From assembly GCF_013294115.1 (NCBI RefSeq), contig NZ_JABSNP010000024.1, positions 1 to 64,000 of the forward strand: a DNA stretch of 64,000 nucleotides. Direction: 5' to 3'. This DNA is from Hymenobacter caeli (GTDB lineage Bacteria; Bacteroidota; Bacteroidia; Cytophagales; Hymenobacteraceae). Below, one piece after another: positions 12,931 to 62,414 of the stretch. The position numbers and the translations under genes are program-made. The notes under the pieces were generated by a model, which made no database searches, was not told where the DNA came from, and was given only the letters and a program-made list of their open reading frames with translations. Within the stretch, counting starts at the first letter, position 1. Every line of letters begins with the position of its first letter.

Positions 12931-15900
12931 TTGCCCGATTCTCCCCACGCCCGCCTCGCGGCCCTTGCCCTCCCCGCCGCGCCGGCCGACCAGCTCCCGC
13001 GCCTGCGCAAGCTGCTGGAGGCCCTGCTGCGCCACGCCTGCCAGCAGCACAAGGCCCCGTTCAGCAACCTGAGCCAGGCCATCGGGTGGGCGGGCTTTGC
13101 CTTGGCGCTGCCCGAGGCGCTGCGCCACCGCTTGCAGGCCCTGCGCCTGGCCGCCAACCTGGTGCTGCACGAGAGCTACCCCGGCACCCCCGCCGAGGCC
13201 GCCGCCGGCTTCGGCGCCCTGGCCGGGCTGCTGGCCTTCCTGACGCCCGAAGCGTACACCGGCCCCTGGCCCGCCGGCGCGGCCGAAGCCCTGGCAAGCC
13301 CGCTGCTTGTGGCTGCCCCCGTGGCGGGGGCCGCGCTGCCCCCGGCCCCCGACGCGGCCGCGGTGTGGCGGGTGCACGTGCTGCACGTCGAGCTGGCCAC
13401 CGGGGTGCTCACCGTGGAGCTGGCCGCGCCGGCCGACGACCGGCCCGCGGGGCCCTTTGCCGTGCGGGTGCCCGCGGCCTACGACAACCTGCTGCCGCTG
13501 GCCGCCGCCCTGCACCCCGGCCTCAACCTCGTGGGGCCGGTGCGCCAGGCCGACGGCCACTACCTGCCGCGCCGCGTGGTGCTGGAGCCCGACTACCTGA
13601 TAAACGTGACCACGCTGGCCGAATGCGCCCTCAAGGACGGCACCGTGCCCGAGCTGGCCGTGCTGCACTCGTTTTTGCCCGATGAGGTGTCGCGCCCGCT
13701 GGCCGTGGGAAACCTGGTCAACATCCTGCTCGACGAGGAAGTGAGCCACGCGGCCCGGCAGTTAATAATTAACAATGAGCAGTTAGCAGTTGACAGTGAG
13801 CAGTTAACAGTGAGCAGTGCGCAGTTAACAGTTGACGGTGAGCGGTTAATAATTAGCAACGAGCCGCTGGTGATTAGTGGCGATGGAAAACAATTAACTC
13901 TTACTGCTGAAGACGGAGCCGCTGCCGTACCAGAAGCTGCCGGTGCTTCAGCAGCACCAGAAACCCGGGCACCAGGCACCAAACAACAGGTACCGGGCCC
14001 CGGGCCCCGGGCCCCGAAAGACTTCGACCTCGACCATTTCCTCAAGCACCGCCTGTTTCGGTCGGCCCCGCTGCTACTGAGCACGCTGCCCGAATTCCAG
14101 AGCCGTAATGGGGTGCCGGAATTGCTGAACGACCTGCGCCGCCACCACCGCACCCTGCGCGAAACCCGGCAGCAGGGCTTCGTGGCCGCCTCGCGCACCG
14201 GCTACCAGCAGCAGCCCCTGCGGCCGGCCGACTGCTTCCTGGAGCCGGCATTTCTGTCGGCCACCTACGGCCTGCAGGGGCGGCTCGACCTGCTGCACGA
14301 AAGCCCCACCGGCTACGACCTGGTGGAGCTGAAGAGCAGCACCCGCGTGCCCTTCGACCAGCCCTGGAGCAACCACGCGGCCCAGGCCCAGCTCTACCGC
14401 CTGCTGCTGGAATCGGTGTTCGGGGCCGACGGCGAAACGGCCGGGCGCGGGCGCACCAGCATCCTCTATTCCAACGCCGCCACCGGCCAGGCCCCCGTGC
14501 GGCGCGTGGACCACGACCCGGCGCTGGTGGACCGCCTGCTGGCCGTGCGCAACTACGTGGTGGGCACCGAGCTGCTGCTGGCCCGCTCGCCGGGCCCCGG
14601 CCACACCGCCGCCCTGCTGGCCCCCGTGCTGCGCCCCAACCTGGCGCTGCTGCCGCCCTTCACCCGCGAGAAGGCCGAGAAAGTGGCCAACACCTGGGCC
14701 GCCGCCGACGTCACGGAGCGGGCCTATTGCCTGGAAATCATCCGCTTCGGGGCCCGGGAGATGCGCCTCTCGCTGCTCGGCGACGACACCCGCCCCGGCG
14801 ACGCCGGCGGCCAGGCCGGCCTGTGGCGGCTCTCGGCCCAGCGCAAGCACCAGAACTTCAGCCTGCTCGACGGCCTGACCCTGCTCGAAGACCAGACCGA
14901 CGCCCCCGACGACGCCCGCGACGGCCTGGGCCCCCACCTCGTGCTGCAACGGGCCCCCGGGGGCCGCGAAGTCAACTTCCGCGCCGGCGACACGCTCATT
15001 CTCTACCCGCGGATGAAAGCCGTTGACTCAAAGCTGCTGGCTGAGGACGCTTCGGCGGATGAAAAAGCTAACAGCCAGCAGCTAACCGCTAACAGCTTAA
15101 GCATCCTGGACGCGCAAATCGTGAAGGTGACGCTGGCCGAAGACCTGGGGGCCGACGGCCGCGTGGTGCTGGCCGTGCGCAACCGCCGCATTGCCCCGCG
15201 CTACCTGCGCGGCCACTCGCACTGGGCTCTGGAGCCCGACACGTTCGACACGTTCCGGCGCGAGTGGGCAGGCTTGTCGGCCTTCCTGATGCTGCCGCCC
15301 GAGCGCCGGGGCCGCCTGCTGGCCCGCACCGCCCCGCGCCCGCCCGAAGGCTGGGCCCCCGCCGACGCCCCCGCCACCGACGCCGCCGAAGTGGTGCGCC
15401 GCGCCCTGGCTGCCCCCGACTGGTTCGTGCTCTGCGGGCCCCCCGGCACCGGCAAAACCCGCGCGGTGCTGCGCGAGCTGGCCGTGCAGCTGGTGGCCGC
15501 CGACCAGCAAACCCTACTGGCCGCCTACACCAACCGCGCCGTGGACGAAATCTGCGAGCAGCTGGTGGCCGCCGGGCTGCCCTTCATCCGCCTTGGCTCG
15601 CGGCTGAGCACGGCCCCCGCGTACCGCCCGTACCTGCTCGACAACATGATTCGGGACCTGCCCTCGCGCCAGACCGTGCGGGCCCGCCTCACCGGCACGC
15701 CGCTCTACGTGGGCACCATTGCCAGCCTGCTGGGCAAGCCGGAGCTGTTTTTGCTGAAGAGCTTTGACGTGGCAGTGGTGGACGAGGCCAGCCAGGTGCT
15801 GGAAGCGCCCATGCTGGCCCTGCTGGCCAAGGTGCGCAAGTTCGTCCTCATCGGCGACCACCGCCAGCTGCCCGCCGTGGTGGCCCAGGAGCCGGCCAGC

Positions 15901-16692
15901 AGCGCCGTGGCCCCCGGCGTGGCCGAGCTGCTGCGCCACGAGCTAGGCCTCACCAACCTGCGCAATTCCTACTTTGAACGCCTGTTCCGCCGGGCCGAGG
16001 CGCGCTGGCCCTACGCCCACGGCACGTTGGCCCGCCAGTACCGCGCCCACCAGGAGCTGGCCGCGCTGGTCAACGACGACTTCTACGGCGGTTTGCTGCG
16101 CAGCCCCGAGCCCTGGCAGGCCGTCAGCCTCAACCCCCACGCCTGGCCCCCGGCCGCCGATGCCTTCGGCGAAGCCCTGCGCCGCCAGCGCCTGGTGTTC
16201 GTGCCCACCCAGCGCCGGCCCGACGACCTGTCGCAGAAGGAATCGGGCCAGGAGGCCGACCTCGCGGCCCGCGCCGCCCTGGCCGTGGCCCGGGGCGAGG
16301 GCCCCCGCTTCGACCCCGCCACCAGCCTGGGCATCATCGCCAGCTACCGCAACCAGGCCGCCCGCATCCGCGCCCGCCTGGCCCAGCTGGCCCAGCAGCA
16401 CGATTTGCCCGCCCTGCTCCAGGTCAGCGTCGATACCGTGGAGCGCTACCAGGGCTCGCAGCGCGACGTCATCGTCGTCAGCTTCTGCTGCCACCACGAG
16501 CACCAGCTGGAAATGATGGTGTCGCCCGACGAAACCGGCCGGGTGGACCGCAAGCTGAACGTGGCCCTCACCCGGGCCCGCCAGCAGCTGGTGCTGCTCG
16601 GCAACGCCGAGGTGCTGGCCCGCGCCCCCCACCACGCCGCGCTGCTGGCCCGGGTGCGGGCCGCCGGCGGCTGGGTAGCGGCTGATTCGTAG
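12931..16692 (+). CDS. Dna2-like nuclease-helicase (PD-(D/E)XK plus SF1B helicase)
   Basis: A 1253-residue protein starting at TTG 12931 (no in-frame ATG is near). Residues 1-275 are a helical region of unknown type. A nuclease domain at about 375-520 has GLQGRLDLL (about 450), YDLVELKSST (about 465) and the QxxxY-like motif AQAQLYRLLL, the PD-(D/E)XK pattern of Cas4/RecB/Dna2. The helicase follows: Walker A LCGPPGTGKTRAVL (about 836), motif II VVDEASQVLEA (about 948), GDHRQLPAVV (about 974), RYQGSQRDVIVVSFC (about 1172), NVALTRARQQLVLLGN (about 1212). This order is that of eukaryotic Dna2, a flap- and resection nuclease, but I see no four-cysteine iron-sulphur site. Two stretches (about 277-328 and 697-725) are repeat-derived insertions. 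A repair or defence role is inference. Confidence 0.88.
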   Translation: MPDSPHARLAALALPAAPADQLPRLRKLLEALLRHACQQHKAPFSNLSQAIGWAGFALALPEALRHRLQALRLAANLVLHESYPGTPAEAAAGFGALAGLLAFLTPEAYTGPWPAGAAEALASPLLVAAPVAGAALPPAPDAAAVWRVHVLHVELATGVLTVELAAPADDRPAGPFAVRVPAAYDNLLPLAAALHPGLNLVGPVRQADGHYLPRRVVLEPDYLINVTTLAECALKDGTVPELAVLHSFLPDEVSRPLAVGNLVNILLDEEVSHAARQLIINNEQLAVDSEQLTVSSAQLTVDGERLIISNEPLVISGDGKQLTLTAEDGAAAVPEAAGASAAPETRAPGTKQQVPGPGPRAPKDFDLDHFLKHRLFRSAPLLLSTLPEFQSRNGVPELLNDLRRHHRTLRETRQQGFVAASRTGYQQQPLRPADCFLEPAFLSATYGLQGRLDLLHESPTGYDLVELKSSTRVPFDQPWSNHAAQAQLYRLLLESVFGADGETAGRGRTSILYSNAATGQAPVRRVDHDPALVDRLLAVRNYVVGTELLLARSPGPGHTAALLAPVLRPNLALLPPFTREKAEKVANTWAAADVTERAYCLEIIRFGAREMRLSLLGDDTRPGDAGGQAGLWRLSAQRKHQNFSLLDGLTLLEDQTDAPDDARDGLGPHLVLQRAPGGREVNFRAGDTLILYPRMKAVDSKLLAEDASADEKANSQQLTANSLSILDAQIVKVTLAEDLGADGRVVLAVRNRRIAPRYLRGHSHWALEPDTFDTFRREWAGLSAFLMLPPERRGRLLARTAPRPPEGWAPADAPATDAAEVVRRALAAPDWFVLCGPPGTGKTRAVLRELAVQLVAADQQTLLAAYTNRAVDEICEQLVAAGLPFIRLGSRLSTAPAYRPYLLDNMIRDLPSRQTVRARLTGTPLYVGTIASLLGKPELFLLKSFDVAVVDEASQVLEAPMLALLAKVRKFVLIGDHRQLPAVVAQEPASSAVAPGVAELLRHELGLTNLRNSYFERLFRRAEARWPYAHGTLARQYRAHQELAALVNDDFYGGLLRSPEPWQAVSLNPHAWPPAADAFGEALRRQRLVFVPTQRRPDDLSQKESGQEADLAARAALAVARGEGPRFDPATSLGIIASYRNQAARIRARLAQLAQQHDLPALLQVSVDTVERYQGSQRDVIVVSFCCHHEHQLEMMVSPDETGRVDRKLNVALTRARQQLVLLGNAEVLARAPHHAALLARVRAAGGWVAADS
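13759..13881 (+). repeat. In-frame heptamer repeat array inside the Dna2-like gene
   Basis: The DNA is a run of degenerate 7-bp units (CAGTTAG, CAGTTGA, CAGTGAG, CAGTTAA and variants). Three units make 21 bp, so the protein shows five 7-residue repeats over 13777-13881: EQLAVDS, EQLTVSS, AQLTVDG, ERLIISN, EPLVISG. It begins with a stretch encoding QLIINNEQ that is also found at the end of the sigma factor gene. GC content drops sharply. The insertion lies between the N-terminal region and the nuclease domain. Confidence 0.93.
15032..15097 (+). repeat. In-frame palindromic repeat inside the Dna2-like gene, copy of the alaS element
   Basis: Bases 15058-15097 match the alaS insertion (30467-30506) at 37 of 40 positions and are read in the same frame, giving DEKANSQQLTANS. 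The left arm has decayed: only AGCTGCTGGCTG at 15032-15043 still pairs with 15072-15083. It lies in the linker before the helicase domain. Confidence 0.93.
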
Positions 16693-28374: not shown

Positions 28375-29412
28375 TTATTTTACGCGGTATTTCCGGCTGA
28401 TTTCGTCGTACATCAGCAGCATGTCGTTGGCCTGGCCCTGCTTGTCGAACACGGCTTCCCAGGTGTTCAGCGGCTCCCAAATGAAGGTGCCCTTGCCTTT
28501 GCCGCCGGGCAGGTTGAAGGCCACGTCGTTCACCTCGCGCTTGCGCTCGGAGTACTCCACCACCACAATGTCCTGCGGGTAGCGCTTGGCTAAATCAGTT
28601 AGGTTGGCCTTCAGGTCGGGAATGGTGCCGTGCCACTTGGGGTAGTACGACTCGCCGATGACGTCGAACGCCACCCCGCGGGCCGCCATGCGGTCGAGCC
28701 ACCGCGTGGAATACCCGTTTTGGCCGCCCAGCGCGATGTGCAGCATCACCAGGGCCCCCGGGTCGGCCTCGTGCACGGCGCGGATGCCGGCCTTCACCAA
28801 GCCGGCCAGGGCGTCGAAGCGGGCCAGGCTGTCGGCGTGCTGCACGTCGCCGTCGGGCCAAATCATACCGTGGTTGATTTCGTTGCCCACCTGCACCATG
28901 TCGGGCGGCGTGCCCTGGGCGGCCAGGGCCCCCAGCACCTCCTTGGTGTAGTCGTGCACGGCGGCTTCCAGGGCGGGGCCGCTTAAGCCCTTCCAGGCCA
29001 GGGGCTTGAACTGCTTCTGCGGGTCGGCCCAGGTGTCGGAGTAGTGGAAGTCGAGCAGCAGCTTCAGGCCGGCCGCCCGCACGCGCTTGGCCATCGCCAG
29101 GGTGTGCGGCAGGTCGCAGAAACCCTTGCCCGGCGAGTAGCCGCTGTCGGCGGCGGGGTTGTTGAAAATGCGCAGCCGGATGTAATTGAAGCCGTGCTCT
29201 TTGAGAATCTGGATGGCGTCTTTCGGACCGGTTTTATCGGCGAATTTCACGCCCCGCGCCTCCAGCTGGGGCAGGAAAGAAATATCGGCTCCGAGCACCT
29301 TGCCCAGCCGGGCCGGGCGCGGGCGGGCTGCCCCCGCGGCACCGCCCGCCAGCAGCAGCAAAACGACCAGCGCGAGCGGCCGGCGCAACAAATTCAGCGA
29401 AAACGAGCGCAT
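28375..29412 (-). CDS. Arabinogalactan endo-beta-1,4-galactanase (GH53)
   Basis: A 345-residue secreted glycosidase with signal MRSFSLNLLRRPLALVVLL and an AGAA cleavage region. The GH53 barrel shows GADISFLPQLEARGVKFAD, FNYIRLRIFNNP, KLLLDFHYSDTWADPQKQF, and the acid/base glutamate in VQVGNEINHGMIWP. The nucleophile glutamate is most likely in IVVVEYSERKRE. It would cut beta-1,4-galactan side chains of pectin. There is no SusCD pair nearby, so it is a stand-alone enzyme. Stop is 12 bases before the merR start. Confidence 0.92.
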   Translation of the reverse strand: MRSFSLNLLRRPLALVVLLLLAGGAAGAARPRPARLGKVLGADISFLPQLEARGVKFADKTGPKDAIQILKEHGFNYIRLRIFNNPAADSGYSPGKGFCDLPHTLAMAKRVRAAGLKLLLDFHYSDTWADPQKQFKPLAWKGLSGPALEAAVHDYTKEVLGALAAQGTPPDMVQVGNEINHGMIWPDGDVQHADSLARFDALAGLVKAGIRAVHEADPGALVMLHIALGGQNGYSTRWLDRMAARGVAFDVIGESYYPKWHGTIPDLKANLTDLAKRYPQDIVVVEYSERKREVNDVAFNLPGGKGKGTFIWEPLNTWEAVFDKQGQANDMLLMYDEISRKYRVK

Positions 29413-29504
29413 CAGCGGCGGAGAAGGGCGGGGGGAAGGGGCGGGGCCGGGCAGAAGCCGCAAGTTAGGGGCCCGGGCCCTACCGGGCCGCGGGGCCCCG
29501 GCGC

Positions 29505-29512
29505 TACCTTTG
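29505..29512 (+). promoter_or_regulatory. -7 promoter box of alaS
   Basis: TACCTTTG is a perfect TAnnTTTG box. The alaS ATG is at 29579, giving a leader of about 60 bases. Confidence 0.6.
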
Positions 29513-29578
29513 CGGGGCCGGTCCCGTGGCCCACCCAAAACCGCCGCGGGGCCCCGATTCGCCTTTTCTCCGCTCCCC

Positions 29579-32320
29579 ATGTCGCTCCCCACCGCCGCGC
29601 ACGTCCGCCAGCAATTCCTCGATTTCTTCGCCTCCAAGGGCCACCACATCGTGCCCTCGGCCCCGCTCGTGGTGAAAGACGACCCCACGCTGCTGTTCAT
29701 CAACAGCGGCATGGCCCCGTTCAAAGACTACTTCCTGGGCAACCGGCCCGCGCCCTTCAAGCGCATCGCCGATACCCAGAAGTGCCTGCGCGTGAGCGGC
29801 AAGCACAACGATTTGGAGGAGGTGGGCTACGATACCTACCACCACACCATGTTCGAAATGCTGGGCAACTGGTCGTTCGGCGATTACTTCAAAACCGACG
29901 CCATCGCCTGGGCCTGGGAGCTGCTAACGGACGTGTTCAAGCTCGAAAAAGACCGGCTCTACGTCACGTACTTCGAGGGCGACCAGGGCGACGACCTGGG
30001 CCCCGACGCCGAAACGCAGGCCCTGTGGCGGCAGTACACCACCGACGACCGCATCCTGCCCGGCAACAAGAAGGACAACTTCTGGGAGATGGGCGACACG
30101 GGCCCCTGCGGCCCCTGCACCGAAATCCACGTGGACCTGCGCACCGCCGAGGAGCGCGCCCAAACCCCTGGCAGCCAGCTTGTGAACGCCGACCACCCGC
30201 AGGTGGTGGAAGTGTGGAACAACGTGTTTATGGAGTTCCAGCGCCTGGCCGACAAGTCGCTCATCAAGCTGCCCGCCCAGAGCGTGGACACCGGCATGGG
30301 TTTCGAGCGCCTGATGATGGCCGTGTCGGGCGTGCGCTCGAACTACGACACCGACGTGTTTCAGCCGCTCATCCAGTTCATTGCCAAGGAGGTAGGCATC
30401 GAATACCACGGCACCACGCCTCACTTAGCTGTTAGCTCTCAGCTGTTAGCTATTAGCTCTTCTCCCGATGAAAAAGCTAACAGCCAACAGCTAATGGCTA
30501 ACAGCTCAAACGAAAAGACTGACATCGCCATCCGGGTGCTGGCCGACCACATCCGCGCCATCGCCTTCACCATCGCCGACGGCCAGCTACCCAGCAACGT
30601 GAAGGCCGGCTACGTGATTCGCCGCATCCTGCGCCGGGCCGTGCGCTACGCTTTTTCGAGCCTGAACCAGAAGCAGCCCTTCCTCTACAAACTGGTGCCG
30701 GTGCTGGCCGACCAGATGCGCAACATCTTCCCCGAACTAAAAGCCCAGCAGGCGTTCGTGACGCGCGTGATTGAGGAAGAGGAAATTGCGTTCCTGAAAA
30801 CGCTCGAAACCGGCCTGCGCCGCCTCGATGCGCTGGAAGAAGCCGCCCGCGCCAACGGCGGCGTCATCGACGGCGCCACGGCCTTCGAGCTAAGCGACAC
30901 TTTCGGCTTTCCGCTCGACCTCACGGCCCTCATCGCCCGCGAAAAGGGCCTGACGGTGGACGAGGCCGGCTTCCAGCAGGCCCTGGCCCAGCAGAAAAAC
31001 CGCAGCCGCAACGCCCAGGAAACCGAGCAGAGCGACTGGGTGACGGTGGCCGAGGCCGAGGGCCCCAACGTGTTCGTGGGCTACGACCAGGACGAGGCCA
31101 CCGCCCGCCTGCTGCGCTACCGCAAAATCGACAAGAAGGGCAAGACGGAATACCAATTGGTGCTCGACCAGACGCCGTTTTACGCCGAAAGCGGCGGCCA
31201 GATTGGCGACACCGGCTACCTCGAAAGCGACCTGGACCGGCTGCGCGTGCTGGACACGAAGCGCGAAAACGACCTCATCATCCACACCGTGCTGGAGCTG
31301 CCGCAGGAGCTGACGGCCGAGTTCCGGGCCCGGCCCGATGCGGCCCGGCGCACGCTCATCCGCAACAACCACACGGCCACCCACTTGCTGCAAGCTGCCC
31401 TGCGCCGCGTGCTCGGCGAGCACGTGCAGCAAAAAGGCTCGCTGGTGAACGACAAGCTGCTGCGCTTCGACTTCTCGCACTTCACGAAGGTGAGCGATGC
31501 GCAATTGCGTGAGATTGAGCAGCTCGTGAACGAGCGCATCCGCCGGCAAATCCCGCTCGACGAGCGCCGCAACGTGCCCATTGCCGAAGCCAAAACGCTG
31601 GGCGCCATGGCCCTGTTCGGCGAGAAGTACGGCGAGTTCGTGCGCGTCATTACCTTCGATAAAGACTACTCGGTGGAGCTGTGCGGCGGCCTGCACGTGG
31701 CCAACACGGGCAGCATCGGCTACTTCAAAATCGTGGCCGAGAGCGCCGTGGGGGCCGGCGTGCGCCGCATCGAGGCCGTGACGGCCGGCACCGCCGAAGC
31801 CTACGTGGACCAGCAAATTGACCTGCTCACCCAGGTGCGCGAGGCCCTCGGCAACCCCCAGCACCTGCTGACCTCGCTCGAAAAGCAGACCGAGGAAATT
31901 GGGGCCCTGCGCAAGCAAATCGAGCAGTTTGCCCAGCAAAGCATCAACCAGCAGAAGGACCAGCTCGCCGGCCAGGTGAAGCCCCTGAACGGCGTGAATT
32001 TCCTCGCCGCCCAGGTGCAGGCCACCAGCGCCGAGGGCCTCAAAACCCTGGCCTTCCACCTGCGCCAGGCCGTGCCCCACCTCGTGCTGGTGCTCGGCGC
32101 CGAAATCGACGGCAAGCCCCAGCTGGCCGTGATGCTGGCCGACGAGCTGGCCAAAGCCGGCAAGCTCAACGCCACGGCGCTGGTGCGCGAGCTGGCCAAG
32201 GAAATCCAGGGCGGCGGCGGCGGCCAGCCGTTCTTCGCCACCGCCGGCGGCAAAAACCTGGCGGGCCTGGGCGCGGCCATCGCCAAGGCGGGGGGGTTGG
32301 TGGGGCAGGCTATTGCTTAA
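29579..32320 (+). CDS. alaS: Alanyl-tRNA synthetase with repeat-derived insertion
   Basis: A 913-residue essential enzyme that charges tRNA-Ala. Catalytic core: QQFLDFFASKGHHIVPSAPL, TLLFINSGMAPFKDYFLG, and NWSFGDYFKTDAIAWAWELL. The editing domain has NNHTATHLLQAALRRVLG (HxxxH) and VELCGGLHVANTG (CxxxH); the C-terminal DHHA1 domain ends GKNLAGLGAAIAKAGG. Between GIEYHGTTPH and DIAIRVLADHIRAIAF about 30 residues (roughly 281-311) are encoded by a palindromic repeat with low GC; in relatives this junction is only a few residues long. The frame is kept, so the protein is expected to work. Start MSLPTAAHVRQQF at 29579. Confidence 0.97.
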   Translation: MSLPTAAHVRQQFLDFFASKGHHIVPSAPLVVKDDPTLLFINSGMAPFKDYFLGNRPAPFKRIADTQKCLRVSGKHNDLEEVGYDTYHHTMFEMLGNWSFGDYFKTDAIAWAWELLTDVFKLEKDRLYVTYFEGDQGDDLGPDAETQALWRQYTTDDRILPGNKKDNFWEMGDTGPCGPCTEIHVDLRTAEERAQTPGSQLVNADHPQVVEVWNNVFMEFQRLADKSLIKLPAQSVDTGMGFERLMMAVSGVRSNYDTDVFQPLIQFIAKEVGIEYHGTTPHLAVSSQLLAISSSPDEKANSQQLMANSSNEKTDIAIRVLADHIRAIAFTIADGQLPSNVKAGYVIRRILRRAVRYAFSSLNQKQPFLYKLVPVLADQMRNIFPELKAQQAFVTRVIEEEEIAFLKTLETGLRRLDALEEAARANGGVIDGATAFELSDTFGFPLDLTALIAREKGLTVDEAGFQQALAQQKNRSRNAQETEQSDWVTVAEAEGPNVFVGYDQDEATARLLRYRKIDKKGKTEYQLVLDQTPFYAESGGQIGDTGYLESDLDRLRVLDTKRENDLIIHTVLELPQELTAEFRARPDAARRTLIRNNHTATHLLQAALRRVLGEHVQQKGSLVNDKLLRFDFSHFTKVSDAQLREIEQLVNERIRRQIPLDERRNVPIAEAKTLGAMALFGEKYGEFVRVITFDKDYSVELCGGLHVANTGSIGYFKIVAESAVGAGVRRIEAVTAGTAEAYVDQQIDLLTQVREALGNPQHLLTSLEKQTEEIGALRKQIEQFAQQSINQQKDQLAGQVKPLNGVNFLAAQVQATSAEGLKTLAFHLRQAVPHLVLVLGAEIDGKPQLAVMLADELAKAGKLNATALVRELAKEIQGGGGGQPFFATAGGKNLAGLGAAIAKAGGLVGQAIA
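30427..30506 (+). repeat. In-frame palindromic heptamer element inside alaS
   Basis: The left arm 30427-30457 pairs with the right arm 30476-30506 at 26 of 31 positions; the loop is 30458-30475. Both arms are runs of 7-bp units (AGCTNTT on the left, AAYRGCY on the right). It encodes DEKANSQQLMANS and flanking residues. The right part is 37/40 identical to 15058-15097. Confidence 0.95.
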
Positions 32321-41462: not shown

Positions 41463-41494
41463 GGGCGTTGGGTAGCTTTTAGCTGTCGGCTGCC

Positions 41495-41553
41495 AGCTGT
41501 CAGCTTTTGTTTTTATTATTATTTAAGGCTCATCAGCGCAAAAGCTGACAGCT
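41495..41553. repeat. Heptamer hairpin between the psi-like and thioesterase genes
   Basis: AGCTGTCAGCTTTTG (41495-41509) pairs perfectly with CAAAAGCTGACAGCT (41539-41553). Both sides extend as 7-bp units such as TAGCTTT and CAGCTGT, the same type as in alaS. The thioesterase stop codon at 41568-41570 is 15 bases away. Confidence 0.9.
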
Positions 41554-41567
41554 AAAAGCTGAAAAAG

Positions 41568-42962: not shown

Positions 42963-44387
42963 GTGCCCCTCCTCCGCCGCCTGCAATACGCCAAGCTCGT
43001 GGCCGCCGACTTTGCGGCGGCGCTGCTGGCCTGGGCGGCGTTCTTCGGCCTGCGCAAGTACTTGCTGCACGAGCTGGCGGGCTTCCACTTCACCCCGCCG
43101 GTGGCCGAGGCGCTGGCGTCGGCGGCCCTGGCCGTGGGCCTGGGCTGGACGGCCCTCTACGCCTTGCTGGGGCAGTACCGCGACGTGTTCCGCAAGTCGC
43201 GCCTGGCCGAGCTGCTGCGCCTGTTCCGGGTGACCACGCTGGGCGTGGTGGTGCTGTTTTTCGCCCTGCTGCTCGACGACCAGGGCGTGAGCAACTACCA
43301 CCTCTACTACCGCACCGTGGCCACGTACTTCCTGGTCCACTACACGTTCACGGCGGTGCTGCGCATCGCGGCCGTGCGCAGCGTGCAGCGGCTGGTGCGG
43401 CGCGGCGACATTTTTTTTCCGACCCTGCTGGTGGGCAGCACCGCGCTGGTGCTCGACACGGCCCGCGAGCTGGGCCGCACCGGCCGCCACCTGGGCCTGC
43501 GGGTGGTGGGCTTCGTGGCCCCCGCCGGCGGGCCCGTCGACGCCGCCCTGGCGGCCGCCCTGCCCGCGCTGGGCACCTACGAGCAGCTGCCGGCGCTGGT
43601 GGCGGCCCAGCGCCTCGAGGAAGTCATCATCGCCATCGAGCCCAGCGAGCACCGCCGCATCCAGCACATCCTCAACCTGCTGGAGGGCAGCCCCGTGCGC
43701 ATCAGCATCCTGCCCGACCTCTACCAAATCCTGCTGGGCTCGGTGAAGGTGAGCCATTCGTTTGGCACGCCGCTCATCGAAATCAAGCACGACCTGCTGC
43801 CCCTCTGGCAGGCGGTGGTGAAGCGCCTGCTCGACGTGCTCGGCGCGGCCCTGTTCCTGGGGCTGGCCTGGTGGGTGTACGCCTTCGCGGCCGCGATGGT
43901 GCGGCTCTCGTCGCCGGGGCCCGTGTTCTACCGCCAGGAGCGCATCGGGCGCAACGGCCGGCCCTTCCGCATCATCAAGTTCCGCTCGATGTACGTCGAT
44001 GCCGAGCGCGGCGGGCCGGCCCTCAGCTCCGACCACGACCCGCGCATCACGCCCTGGGGCCGGTTCATGCGCCGCGTGCGCCTCGACGAGCTGCCCCAGT
44101 TCTGGAACGTGCTCAAGGGCGACATGGCCGTGGTGGGCCCGCGCCCCGAGCGCCAGTTTTTCATCGACCAAATCGTGTGCGTGGCCCCCCACTACCGCCA
44201 CCTGCACCGCGTGCGCCCCGGCCTCACCAGCCTCGGCCAGGTGAAGTACGGCTACGCCGAAACCGTGCCCCAGATGGTGGAACGCCTGAAATTCGACATC
44301 CTCTACATCGAAAACATGAGCCTGGCCATGGACTTCCGAATAATGCTGTTCACGCTGAAAATCATCTTCGAAGGCCGGGGCAAATAA
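42963..44387 (+). CDS. Polyprenyl glycosylphosphotransferase (exopolysaccharide initiation)
   Basis: A 474-residue membrane enzyme that puts the first sugar-phosphate on undecaprenyl phosphate. N-terminal helices (about 10-130), a Rossmann-like CoA-binding domain (LLVGSTALVLDTARELGRT, then LEEVIIAIEPSE), and a C-terminal bacterial sugar transferase domain: SSPGPVFYRQERIGRNGRPF, RIIKFRSMYVDAE, DELPQFWNVLKGDMAVVGPR and GLTSLGQVKYGYAETV. The start is GTG 42963 (MPLLRRLQYAKLV). A single gene, without a surrounding polysaccharide cluster in the window. Confidence 0.93.
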   Translation: MPLLRRLQYAKLVAADFAAALLAWAAFFGLRKYLLHELAGFHFTPPVAEALASAALAVGLGWTALYALLGQYRDVFRKSRLAELLRLFRVTTLGVVVLFFALLLDDQGVSNYHLYYRTVATYFLVHYTFTAVLRIAAVRSVQRLVRRGDIFFPTLLVGSTALVLDTARELGRTGRHLGLRVVGFVAPAGGPVDAALAAALPALGTYEQLPALVAAQRLEEVIIAIEPSEHRRIQHILNLLEGSPVRISILPDLYQILLGSVKVSHSFGTPLIEIKHDLLPLWQAVVKRLLDVLGAALFLGLAWWVYAFAAAMVRLSSPGPVFYRQERIGRNGRPFRIIKFRSMYVDAERGGPALSSDHDPRITPWGRFMRRVRLDELPQFWNVLKGDMAVVGPRPERQFFIDQIVCVAPHYRHLHRVRPGLTSLGQVKYGYAETVPQMVERLKFDILYIENMSLAMDFRIMLFTLKIIFEGRGK

Positions 44388-44390
44388 ATC

Positions 44391-44555
44391 GCTGATTAGT
44401 CGTGATTAACCGTGATTGCGCTGATTAATTGTGACGGACTTGTTTTCGGCGGGCGGGGCCACATCAACCAGTTGTTTGTTGCCTGTTTATCTCCTAACAT
44501 CTCCAAGCCGTGCCGCTACCATCAGCGAAATCACGGTTAATCACGATTAATCAGC
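44391..44555. repeat. Long-range inverted repeat between the sugar transferase and riboflavin synthase genes
   Basis: The arm 44391-44425 (starting GCTGATTAGTCGTGATTAAC) pairs with 44521-44555 at 33 of 35 positions. The loop of 95 bases holds no gene. The right arm ends 5 bases before the ribE ATG at 44561, so the folded RNA would hide the start region. The units here repeat about every 10 bases (AATCACGRTT) rather than 7. Confidence 0.9.
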
Positions 44556-44560
44556 AATTT

Positions 44561-45151
44561 ATGTTTACCGGAATCATCGAAGCCCTGGGCACCGTCGTGG
44601 CCGTCGAAAACGCGGGCACCAACCGCCAGTTCACCGTGCAGTCGCCGTTTGCGGGCGAATTGAAAATTGACCAGAGCGTGGCCCACGACGGCGTGTGCCT
44701 GACGGTGGTGGCCGTGGACGCGGCCGCCGGCACGCACGTGGTGACGGCCATCGACGAAACCCTGCGCGTGACCAACCTGCGCCAGTGGGCCCCCGGCCGC
44801 AAAGTCAACCTGGAGCGCTGCTTGGCCGCCAACGGCCGCTTCGACGGCCACATTGTGCAGGGCCACGTGGACGCCACCGCCGAATGCCTTAGCGTGGACG
44901 ACCAGGACGGCTCCTGGATTTTCCGGTTCCGGCACGCGCCGGGGCCCGGCCGCGTCACGGTCGAGAAAGGCTCCATCTGCGTGAACGGCACCAGCCTGAC
45001 CTGCTTCGAGAGCACCGACGACGGCTTCGCGGTGGCCATCATTCCGTACACCTACGAGCACACCAGCTTCCACCAGCTGCACGCCGGCGAGGTGGTGAAC
45101 CTGGAGTTCGACATCGTGGGCAAGTACGTGGCCAAGCTGCTGGGGCGCTGA
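44561..45151 (+). CDS. ribE: Riboflavin synthase, alpha subunit
   Basis: A 196-residue enzyme that joins two lumazine molecules to riboflavin. It has the family start MFTGIIEALGTVVAV and two tandem lumazine-binding barrels: the first with DQSVAHDGVCLTVVAVD, the second with SGWIF-like DGSWIFRFRH, VTVEKGSICVNGTSLTC and a GKYVAKLL end. Start at 44561. Preceded by a long inverted repeat whose right arm abuts the ATG. No FMN riboswitch is seen. The other rib genes are absent from the window. Confidence 0.96.
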   Translation: MFTGIIEALGTVVAVENAGTNRQFTVQSPFAGELKIDQSVAHDGVCLTVVAVDAAAGTHVVTAIDETLRVTNLRQWAPGRKVNLERCLAANGRFDGHIVQGHVDATAECLSVDDQDGSWIFRFRHAPGPGRVTVEKGSICVNGTSLTCFESTDDGFAVAIIPYTYEHTSFHQLHAGEVVNLEFDIVGKYVAKLLGR

Positions 45152-54866: not shown

Positions 54867-54873
54867 CCGGACC

Positions 54874-54941
54874 GGCGGGCCCCGTTCGGCCCCCGCCCCG
54901 CCCGCCCGGGCGGGCGGGGCGGGGGCCGAACGGGGCCCGCC
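54874..54941. repeat. Perfect 34-bp GC-rich palindrome
   Basis: The arm 54874-54907 is the exact reverse complement of 54908-54941, with no loop. It consists almost only of G and C. It lies 8 bases after a stop codon and has no T-tract. In vivo it would extrude as a cruciform or act as an RNA hairpin. Confidence 0.95.
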
Positions 54942-55043
54942 GCTGCCCGGGTGCTTCAACTATTTACTTAACAAATACTTACAAGGTAATTTTTCACCCG
55001 TCACCCTCCCTTCACCAATCCCTTCCCTCAGTTGCCTGCTCTT

Positions 55044-62292: not shown

Positions 62293-62330
62293 GGGTTTGG
62301 CAATTAGCAATTGACAATGAGCGATTGACA

Positions 62331-62414
62331 ATGAGCAGTGAACAATGAGTAGTGAGCCAGTAAGGCACCATTACTCATTGTTCACTGCTCATTATTAATT
62401 ATTAATTGATGCGT
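62331..62414 (-). repeat. Heptamer palindrome between the sigma and anti-sigma genes
   Basis: The arm 62331-62351 pairs perfectly with 62372-62392 (21 bp, loop 20). 7-bp units CAATTAG, CAATTGA, CAATGAG and CAGTGAA run from about 62301. On the minus strand 62382-62414 is the end of the sigma gene, giving the tail THQLIINNEQ; this peptide is also in the Dna2-like protein. Confidence 0.95.

Follow-up and report, generated by a model that had tools for sequence, protein, structure and literature searches.

The DNA that encodes the peptide DEKANSQQL is not specific to the helicase and alaS genes in which it was noticed: it is a member of a genome-wide family of heptamer hairpins. We favor the view that the feature represents a single copy from a dispersed family of heptamer repeats, spread by replication-type errors and filtered by selection. 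The two starting copies and their host genes lie as follows in the window, that is, the whole 64,000-nucleotide stretch of Hymenobacter DNA that was analyzed.

Positions 12931 to 16692, plus strand: host gene, an SF1-type AAA_11/AAA_12 helicase by Pfam (a PD-(D/E)XK nuclease match is weak).
Positions 13764 to 13860, plus strand: a further heptamer array within this helicase gene, built of a different unit (CAGTTAA/CAGTGAG).
Positions 15031 to 15098, plus strand: in-frame copy in the helicase gene, with a left-arm remnant (15031-15043), a core and a right arm (15064-15098); translated KLLAEDASADEKANSQQLTANSL.
Positions 29186 to 32320, plus strand: host gene alaS (alanyl-tRNA synthetase; TIGR00344, 905.9 bits).
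Positions 30425 to 30506, plus strand: in-frame copy in alaS, with a left arm (30425-30461), a core (30462-30471) and a right arm (30472-30506); translated LAVSSQLLAISSSPDEKANSQQLMANS.

Direct reading of positions 15058-15097 (GATGAAAAAGCTAACAGCCAGCAGCTAACCGCTAACAGCT) and 30467-30506 (GATGAAAAAGCTAACAGCCAACAGCTAATGGCTAACAGCT) gave mismatches at 3/40 positions, bearing out the 37/40 identity of the original prediction; both stretches also encode DEKANSQQL(T/M)ANS in frame, as had been claimed. Chance is ruled out as the source of this match: a 19-base core found 11 matches with up to 3 mismatches in the window versus 0.01 expected, and 318 matches with up to 2 mismatches in the 4.98 Mb host genome versus 0 for a reversed control. 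A common protein domain was ruled out by Pfam and profile searches of the hosts. A BLAST search with the 91-bp alaS copy hit 88 places in the host genome; these and the 318 core matches overlap each other, and neither number is a copy count. Near-identical peptides were found beyond the two genes, and many copies are intergenic, upholding a repeat family. The two unrelated proteins have a peptide in common because each contains a copy of one palindromic repeat family, found in frame in unrelated genes (nine copies) and between genes (about 70 intergenic regions).

We read and classified 89 copies with their flanks, sampled by pattern and not a complete census. The 7-bp units of the family are AGCTAAC and its complement; in a copy they make up two arms of opposite orientation, which enclose a short core without homology between copies. 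Each arm holds four to five units (TTAGCTG... / ...CAGCTAA) and the core spans 10 to 100+ bp, so that a full copy reads as a TTAGCTG-type left arm ending T-rich, the core, and the inverse right arm AAAAGCTAACAGCCAGC... The units vary (AGCTAAC, AGCTAAT, AGCCAGC, AGCTAAA), and among 39 cores compared no pair had an E-value below 1e-3, so there is no full-length consensus that includes the core. Pure tandem AGCTAAC runs reach ~13 units, which points to slippage.

As RNA, full copies form strong folds (z -4.6 to -10.7). In alaS, inverted arms of 35 nt, 83% complementary, enclose a 10-nt loop (z -7.3). The helicase copy has a 12-bp stem in which the shortened left arm GCTGCTGGCTG pairs with CAGCCAGCAGC (z -2.9). 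Calling this left arm decayed, as was done originally, is fair because the orthologous helicase gene of G012, the closest relative (a sister species), has a more complete AGCTAAC-family copy with a longer left arm; other species have unrelated linkers there. In other Hymenobacter (L092, L094) the orthologous linkers hold different short repeats (CACTCAGT, CCAAGCCC) in place of AGCTAAC units. At the site of the second array, the G012 orthologue has inverted GTCAGTT arms. Single examples had led us to expect strong arm-to-arm covariation, and over 57 copies the effect was small: an arm matched its own partner at 20.6 versus 19.4 for other partners (permutation p 0.0007, a modest effect), and the true partner was the best match in only 4/57 copies, so arm-to-arm matching is weak overall.

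The nine in-frame copies lie in AlaRS, ValRS, IspG, TopB, Pnkp, IcmF, an RND transporter, a polysaccharide deacetylase and the helicase, and all translate near LAVSSQLLAVSS-core-(K/L)xANSxQL. Two registers are used, KANSQQL and KLTANS, each yielding ANSxQL. The frame is open through the whole element in 9/9 coding entries (gene C33 counted as two overlapping entries, the helicase copy outside the set) versus 1/48 intergenic copies. An array made purely of AGCTAAC leaves none of the six frames open, and AGCCAAC (TAA to CAA) is open. The earlier observation that the DNA sits in the same frame in both genes stands, but targeting of the frame is superfluous: most other registers of a heptamer array hold stop codons, and only the stop-free variants survive in genes. 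Stop-free units thus give a simple rule for the entry of repeats into proteins.

The AlaRS insert lies between the conserved blocks HGT and NEKTDIA. It is absent from 22 same-genus AlaRS orthologues, which have ~12 residues (SPATVNDQPATE) in its place, implying that ~29 bp were replaced by ~86 bp in the host alaS. An AlphaFold model of AlaRS (14 close orthologues) was poor (pLDDT 41) and was set aside; insert sites were instead placed by sequence alignment to solved structures, on which the AlaRS insert maps to a four-residue gap of the Escherichia coli enzyme (271-276) and the ValRS insert to a two-residue gap of the Thermus thermophilus enzyme (205-208). The tryptic peptide predicted for the AlaRS insert is ANSQQLMANSSNEK. 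The alaS open frame also includes ~131 codons (29186-29578) upstream of the start conserved in orthologues, and from this alignment the true start may be near 29579.

Near-identical peptides in several unrelated proteins could also mean that DEKANSQQL is a common functional peptide, a targeting or interaction motif selected at the protein level. We give this hardly any credence: most copies are non-coding and the DNA is conserved across the arms, stop-avoiding variants occur almost only in genes, orthologues lack the peptide, and the host proteins have no common location or pathway. Low-complexity heptamer repeats can thus write the same foreign insert of 20-35 residues into essential conserved enzymes, and annotators should not take such common peptides as homology.

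Most of the 89 sampled copies lie between genes, with arms near both flanking gene ends. Three further loci of the window are listed below, one in the AGCTAAC family and two with inverted arms of other families.

Positions 41471 to 41562, no strand assigned: intergenic AGCTAAC-family copy (AGCTGAC/AGCTAAA variants) between co-directional minus-strand genes; fold z -4.6.
Positions 44384 to 44562, no strand assigned: intergenic inverted arms of another family adjoining both gene ends; unit near CGTGATTAA.
Positions 62330 to 62393, no strand assigned: another heptamer family (ATGAGCA/GTGAACA), whose inverted arms are perfect over 22 bp and separated by a 20-bp gap.

Two palindromes of other kinds also occur in the window: a perfect 46-bp inverted repeat with a 7-bp loop (2216-2314), which fills a convergent gene gap and has no 7-bp periodicity, and a perfect GC-rich 35-bp palindrome without spacer (54873-54942).

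In the 70 intergenic regions, the arms begin near gene ends, mostly on both sides. Among 68 scored regions with 124 arms, both arms were present in 45/68 and one arm in 20/68. An arm typically starts no more than ~10 bp from the neighboring gene end, and the median outer distance stays at 10 bp even where the region is at least 200 bp long; AGCTAAC is directed to the nearer gene in 107/124 arms. Genes were called with our own codon-usage model, so single arm-to-gene distances may be wrong; several gene ends were confirmed by conservation in G012. By gap type, 66/77 copies lie between co-directional, 9/77 between convergent and 2/77 between divergent genes, versus 35/158 divergent gaps in the same segments (p 4e-5).

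This placement, together with the strong folds of full copies and the spacing of 2-15 bp from stop and start codons, makes a translation-coupling hairpin a serious rival for the intergenic copies: they would be functional RNA that couples a stop to the next start, or that stabilizes or ends transcripts. We nevertheless consider it rather improbable. Convergent gaps also hold copies, single-armed copies exist, covariation is slight, and orthologous G012 spacers often lack the stem. Rfam gave 0 matches above the gathering score in six loci, ruling out known structured RNA families there, and promoter avoidance would likewise deplete divergent gaps.

We compared the host with its relatives. The core is present in 95/120 same-genus genomes, with 0 to 175 matches each. 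Among 18 comparable G012 sites, about five keep the AGCTAAC family, some with a recognizably homologous core; several have inverted arms of another unit (GACAACT type or TGAATGAG) where the host has AGCTAAC; two have a REP-like GTCATGCTGAGC palindrome; and the remaining sites have none. We looked for a clean empty site with exact insertion ends among the 18 and saw none; the spacer was usually replaced rather than simply interrupted. No target-site duplication was seen at these sites, which were too diverged or had the spacer replaced. The AGCTAAC and GACAACT families were uncorrelated across 61 genomes (rho 0.12), with 17 favoring one and 15 the other; other Hymenobacter often carry a related unit, AACTGAC. 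In two further Hymenobacter, TopB has KANSQQLTAN at the linker that also contains it in the host strain.

Gene-flush inverted arms were found in 32 intergenic regions in 1.27 Mb of G012 versus 1.0 after shuffling. At least 13 of these pairs have period 7 (AATTATG, AACAGTT, GTTGTCA, GGAGCGG, AGCTAAC), and among the others are ordinary terminators and palindromes of REP-like type. Most arrays escaped a plain, strictly scored lag-7 scan of G012.

The analysis did not bear out the description of the DNA as mobile: no conserved core, target-site duplication or associated transposase was seen, and G012 often has another repeat family or a replaced spacer at comparable sites. A palindromic element mobilized by a transposase, like a Rickettsia palindromic element (RPE) or a MITE, and inserted at many sites, some of them in frame within genes, would fit the dispersed inverted repeats, the in-frame copies in unrelated genes and the patchy copy number across Hymenobacter. 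It is unlikely given that the 39 cores have no common sequence, that the arms vary in unit order and number and track gene ends even where the spacer is long, and that the diverged or replaced G012 sites showed no duplication. REP-like elements moved by RAYT (Y1 transposase, PF01797) are very unlikely. Genomes with strong PF01797 matches do have more core matches (median 13 versus 3, p 0.005, without phylogenetic correction), but G008 has 78 matches and no PF01797 match; AGCTAAC arms occur at 1/11 PF01797 loci read (in H. aerophilus, ~2 kb from the gene) and at neither of the two PF01797 loci of the host genome.

Arrays of the AGCTAAC type also occur in cyanobacteria, Desulfobacteria, Acidobacteria, Planctomycetes and others. 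A 29-base pattern matched at least 112 stretches in Hymenobacter and in other taxa (Dyadobacter, Chitinophaga, Flavobacterium, Prevotellaceae, Desulfotignum, Acidobacteria, Planctomycetes, Pseudanabaena, Vibrio, Photobacterium and others); many of the records beyond the genus are MAGs and several are isolate genomes. Among the 112 matches listed, 46 have inverted left-type units within 220 bp upstream, and among the matches listed outside genes, 48% lie within 15 bp of a gene end. The same 10-residue peptide, KANSQQLTAN, is encoded in frame within the YbeY protein of a Chitinophaga MAG, and also in a protein from Bacteroidales for which a Pfam search of the fragment gave no assignment.

Several known systems resemble the family in part. 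RPEs are palindromic, occur in intergenic DNA as well as in frame within unrelated protein genes, and have a defined family consensus of ~100-150 bp; the AGCTAAC family is likewise palindromic, intergenic and in frame in unrelated genes, but its copies share only the 7-bp unit and have unrelated cores. Cyanobacterial short tandemly repeated repetitive (STRR) heptamers are, like our family, 7-bp tandem units in non-coding DNA; to our knowledge they have not been reported to bracket spacers as inverted arms or to form inserts in frame. REP/BIME elements with RAYT are also intergenic hairpins near stop codons, but the AGCTAAC family is built of heptamers and showed no link to RAYT genes in the loci read. 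TAACTGA heptamers are arranged as direct repeats (a single indirect one was reported) in Beggiatoaceae, cyanobacteria and a few Bacteroidetes; they are intergenic, near start codons and scattered across phyla, and a few ORFs carry the repeat-encoded peptide in unrelated proteins, with stops restricting the frame (MacGregor 2015, PMC4679880). The AGCTAAC family shares with them the 7-bp units in tandem, the location in non-coding DNA close to gene ends, the scatter across phyla, and repeat-encoded peptides in unrelated proteins with a frame limited by stops. Unlike these direct repeats, it has another unit, mostly paired inverted arms adjoining both gene ends, and copies inserted inside conserved essential enzymes. 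A search of the available literature for the AGCTAAC array string found no paper.

Spread by errors of replication type on short repeats is the most likely origin. Units would be gained by slippage within an arm and by template switching or fold-back copying between arms, with occasional copying to new sites; this last step we infer only, because no clean empty site with exact ends was found. Selection would remove gene-breaking copies, so that repeats come to fill non-coding gaps, and a genic copy would survive only if in frame, in a loop or linker, and made of stop-free unit variants. Such a copy would be translated as ~20-35 extra residues (LAVSSQLLAVSS-core-KANSQQLTANS), probably a neutral passenger. 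Slippage alone does not explain the dispersal or the recurrence of the unit in distant phyla.

The arms differ by genome and site: besides the replaced units described above, AATTATG and AACAGTT arms occur elsewhere in G012. We tentatively raise the possibility of an unnamed widespread bacterial process that would place inverted 7-bp arms at both edges of spacers, with a unit that differs by genome and turns over per site, a stem that links a stop to the next start codon, and foreign peptides put into essential enzymes. The question raised is what sets inverted heptamer arms beside gene ends, with units that vary from one sister species to the other and yet reappear across phyla.

Other palindromes were seen in the same comparison. 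REP-like palindromes GTCATGCTGAGC...GCATCTCT occur in many G012 spacers (L177-L210, e.g., G012:C1:884030), sometimes at positions that a heptamer element occupies in the host strain. A separate palindromic family of ~90 bp (L171:457-557, L171:15840-15930) has dozens of G012 copies at ~82-92% identity, and copies in the host genome as well.
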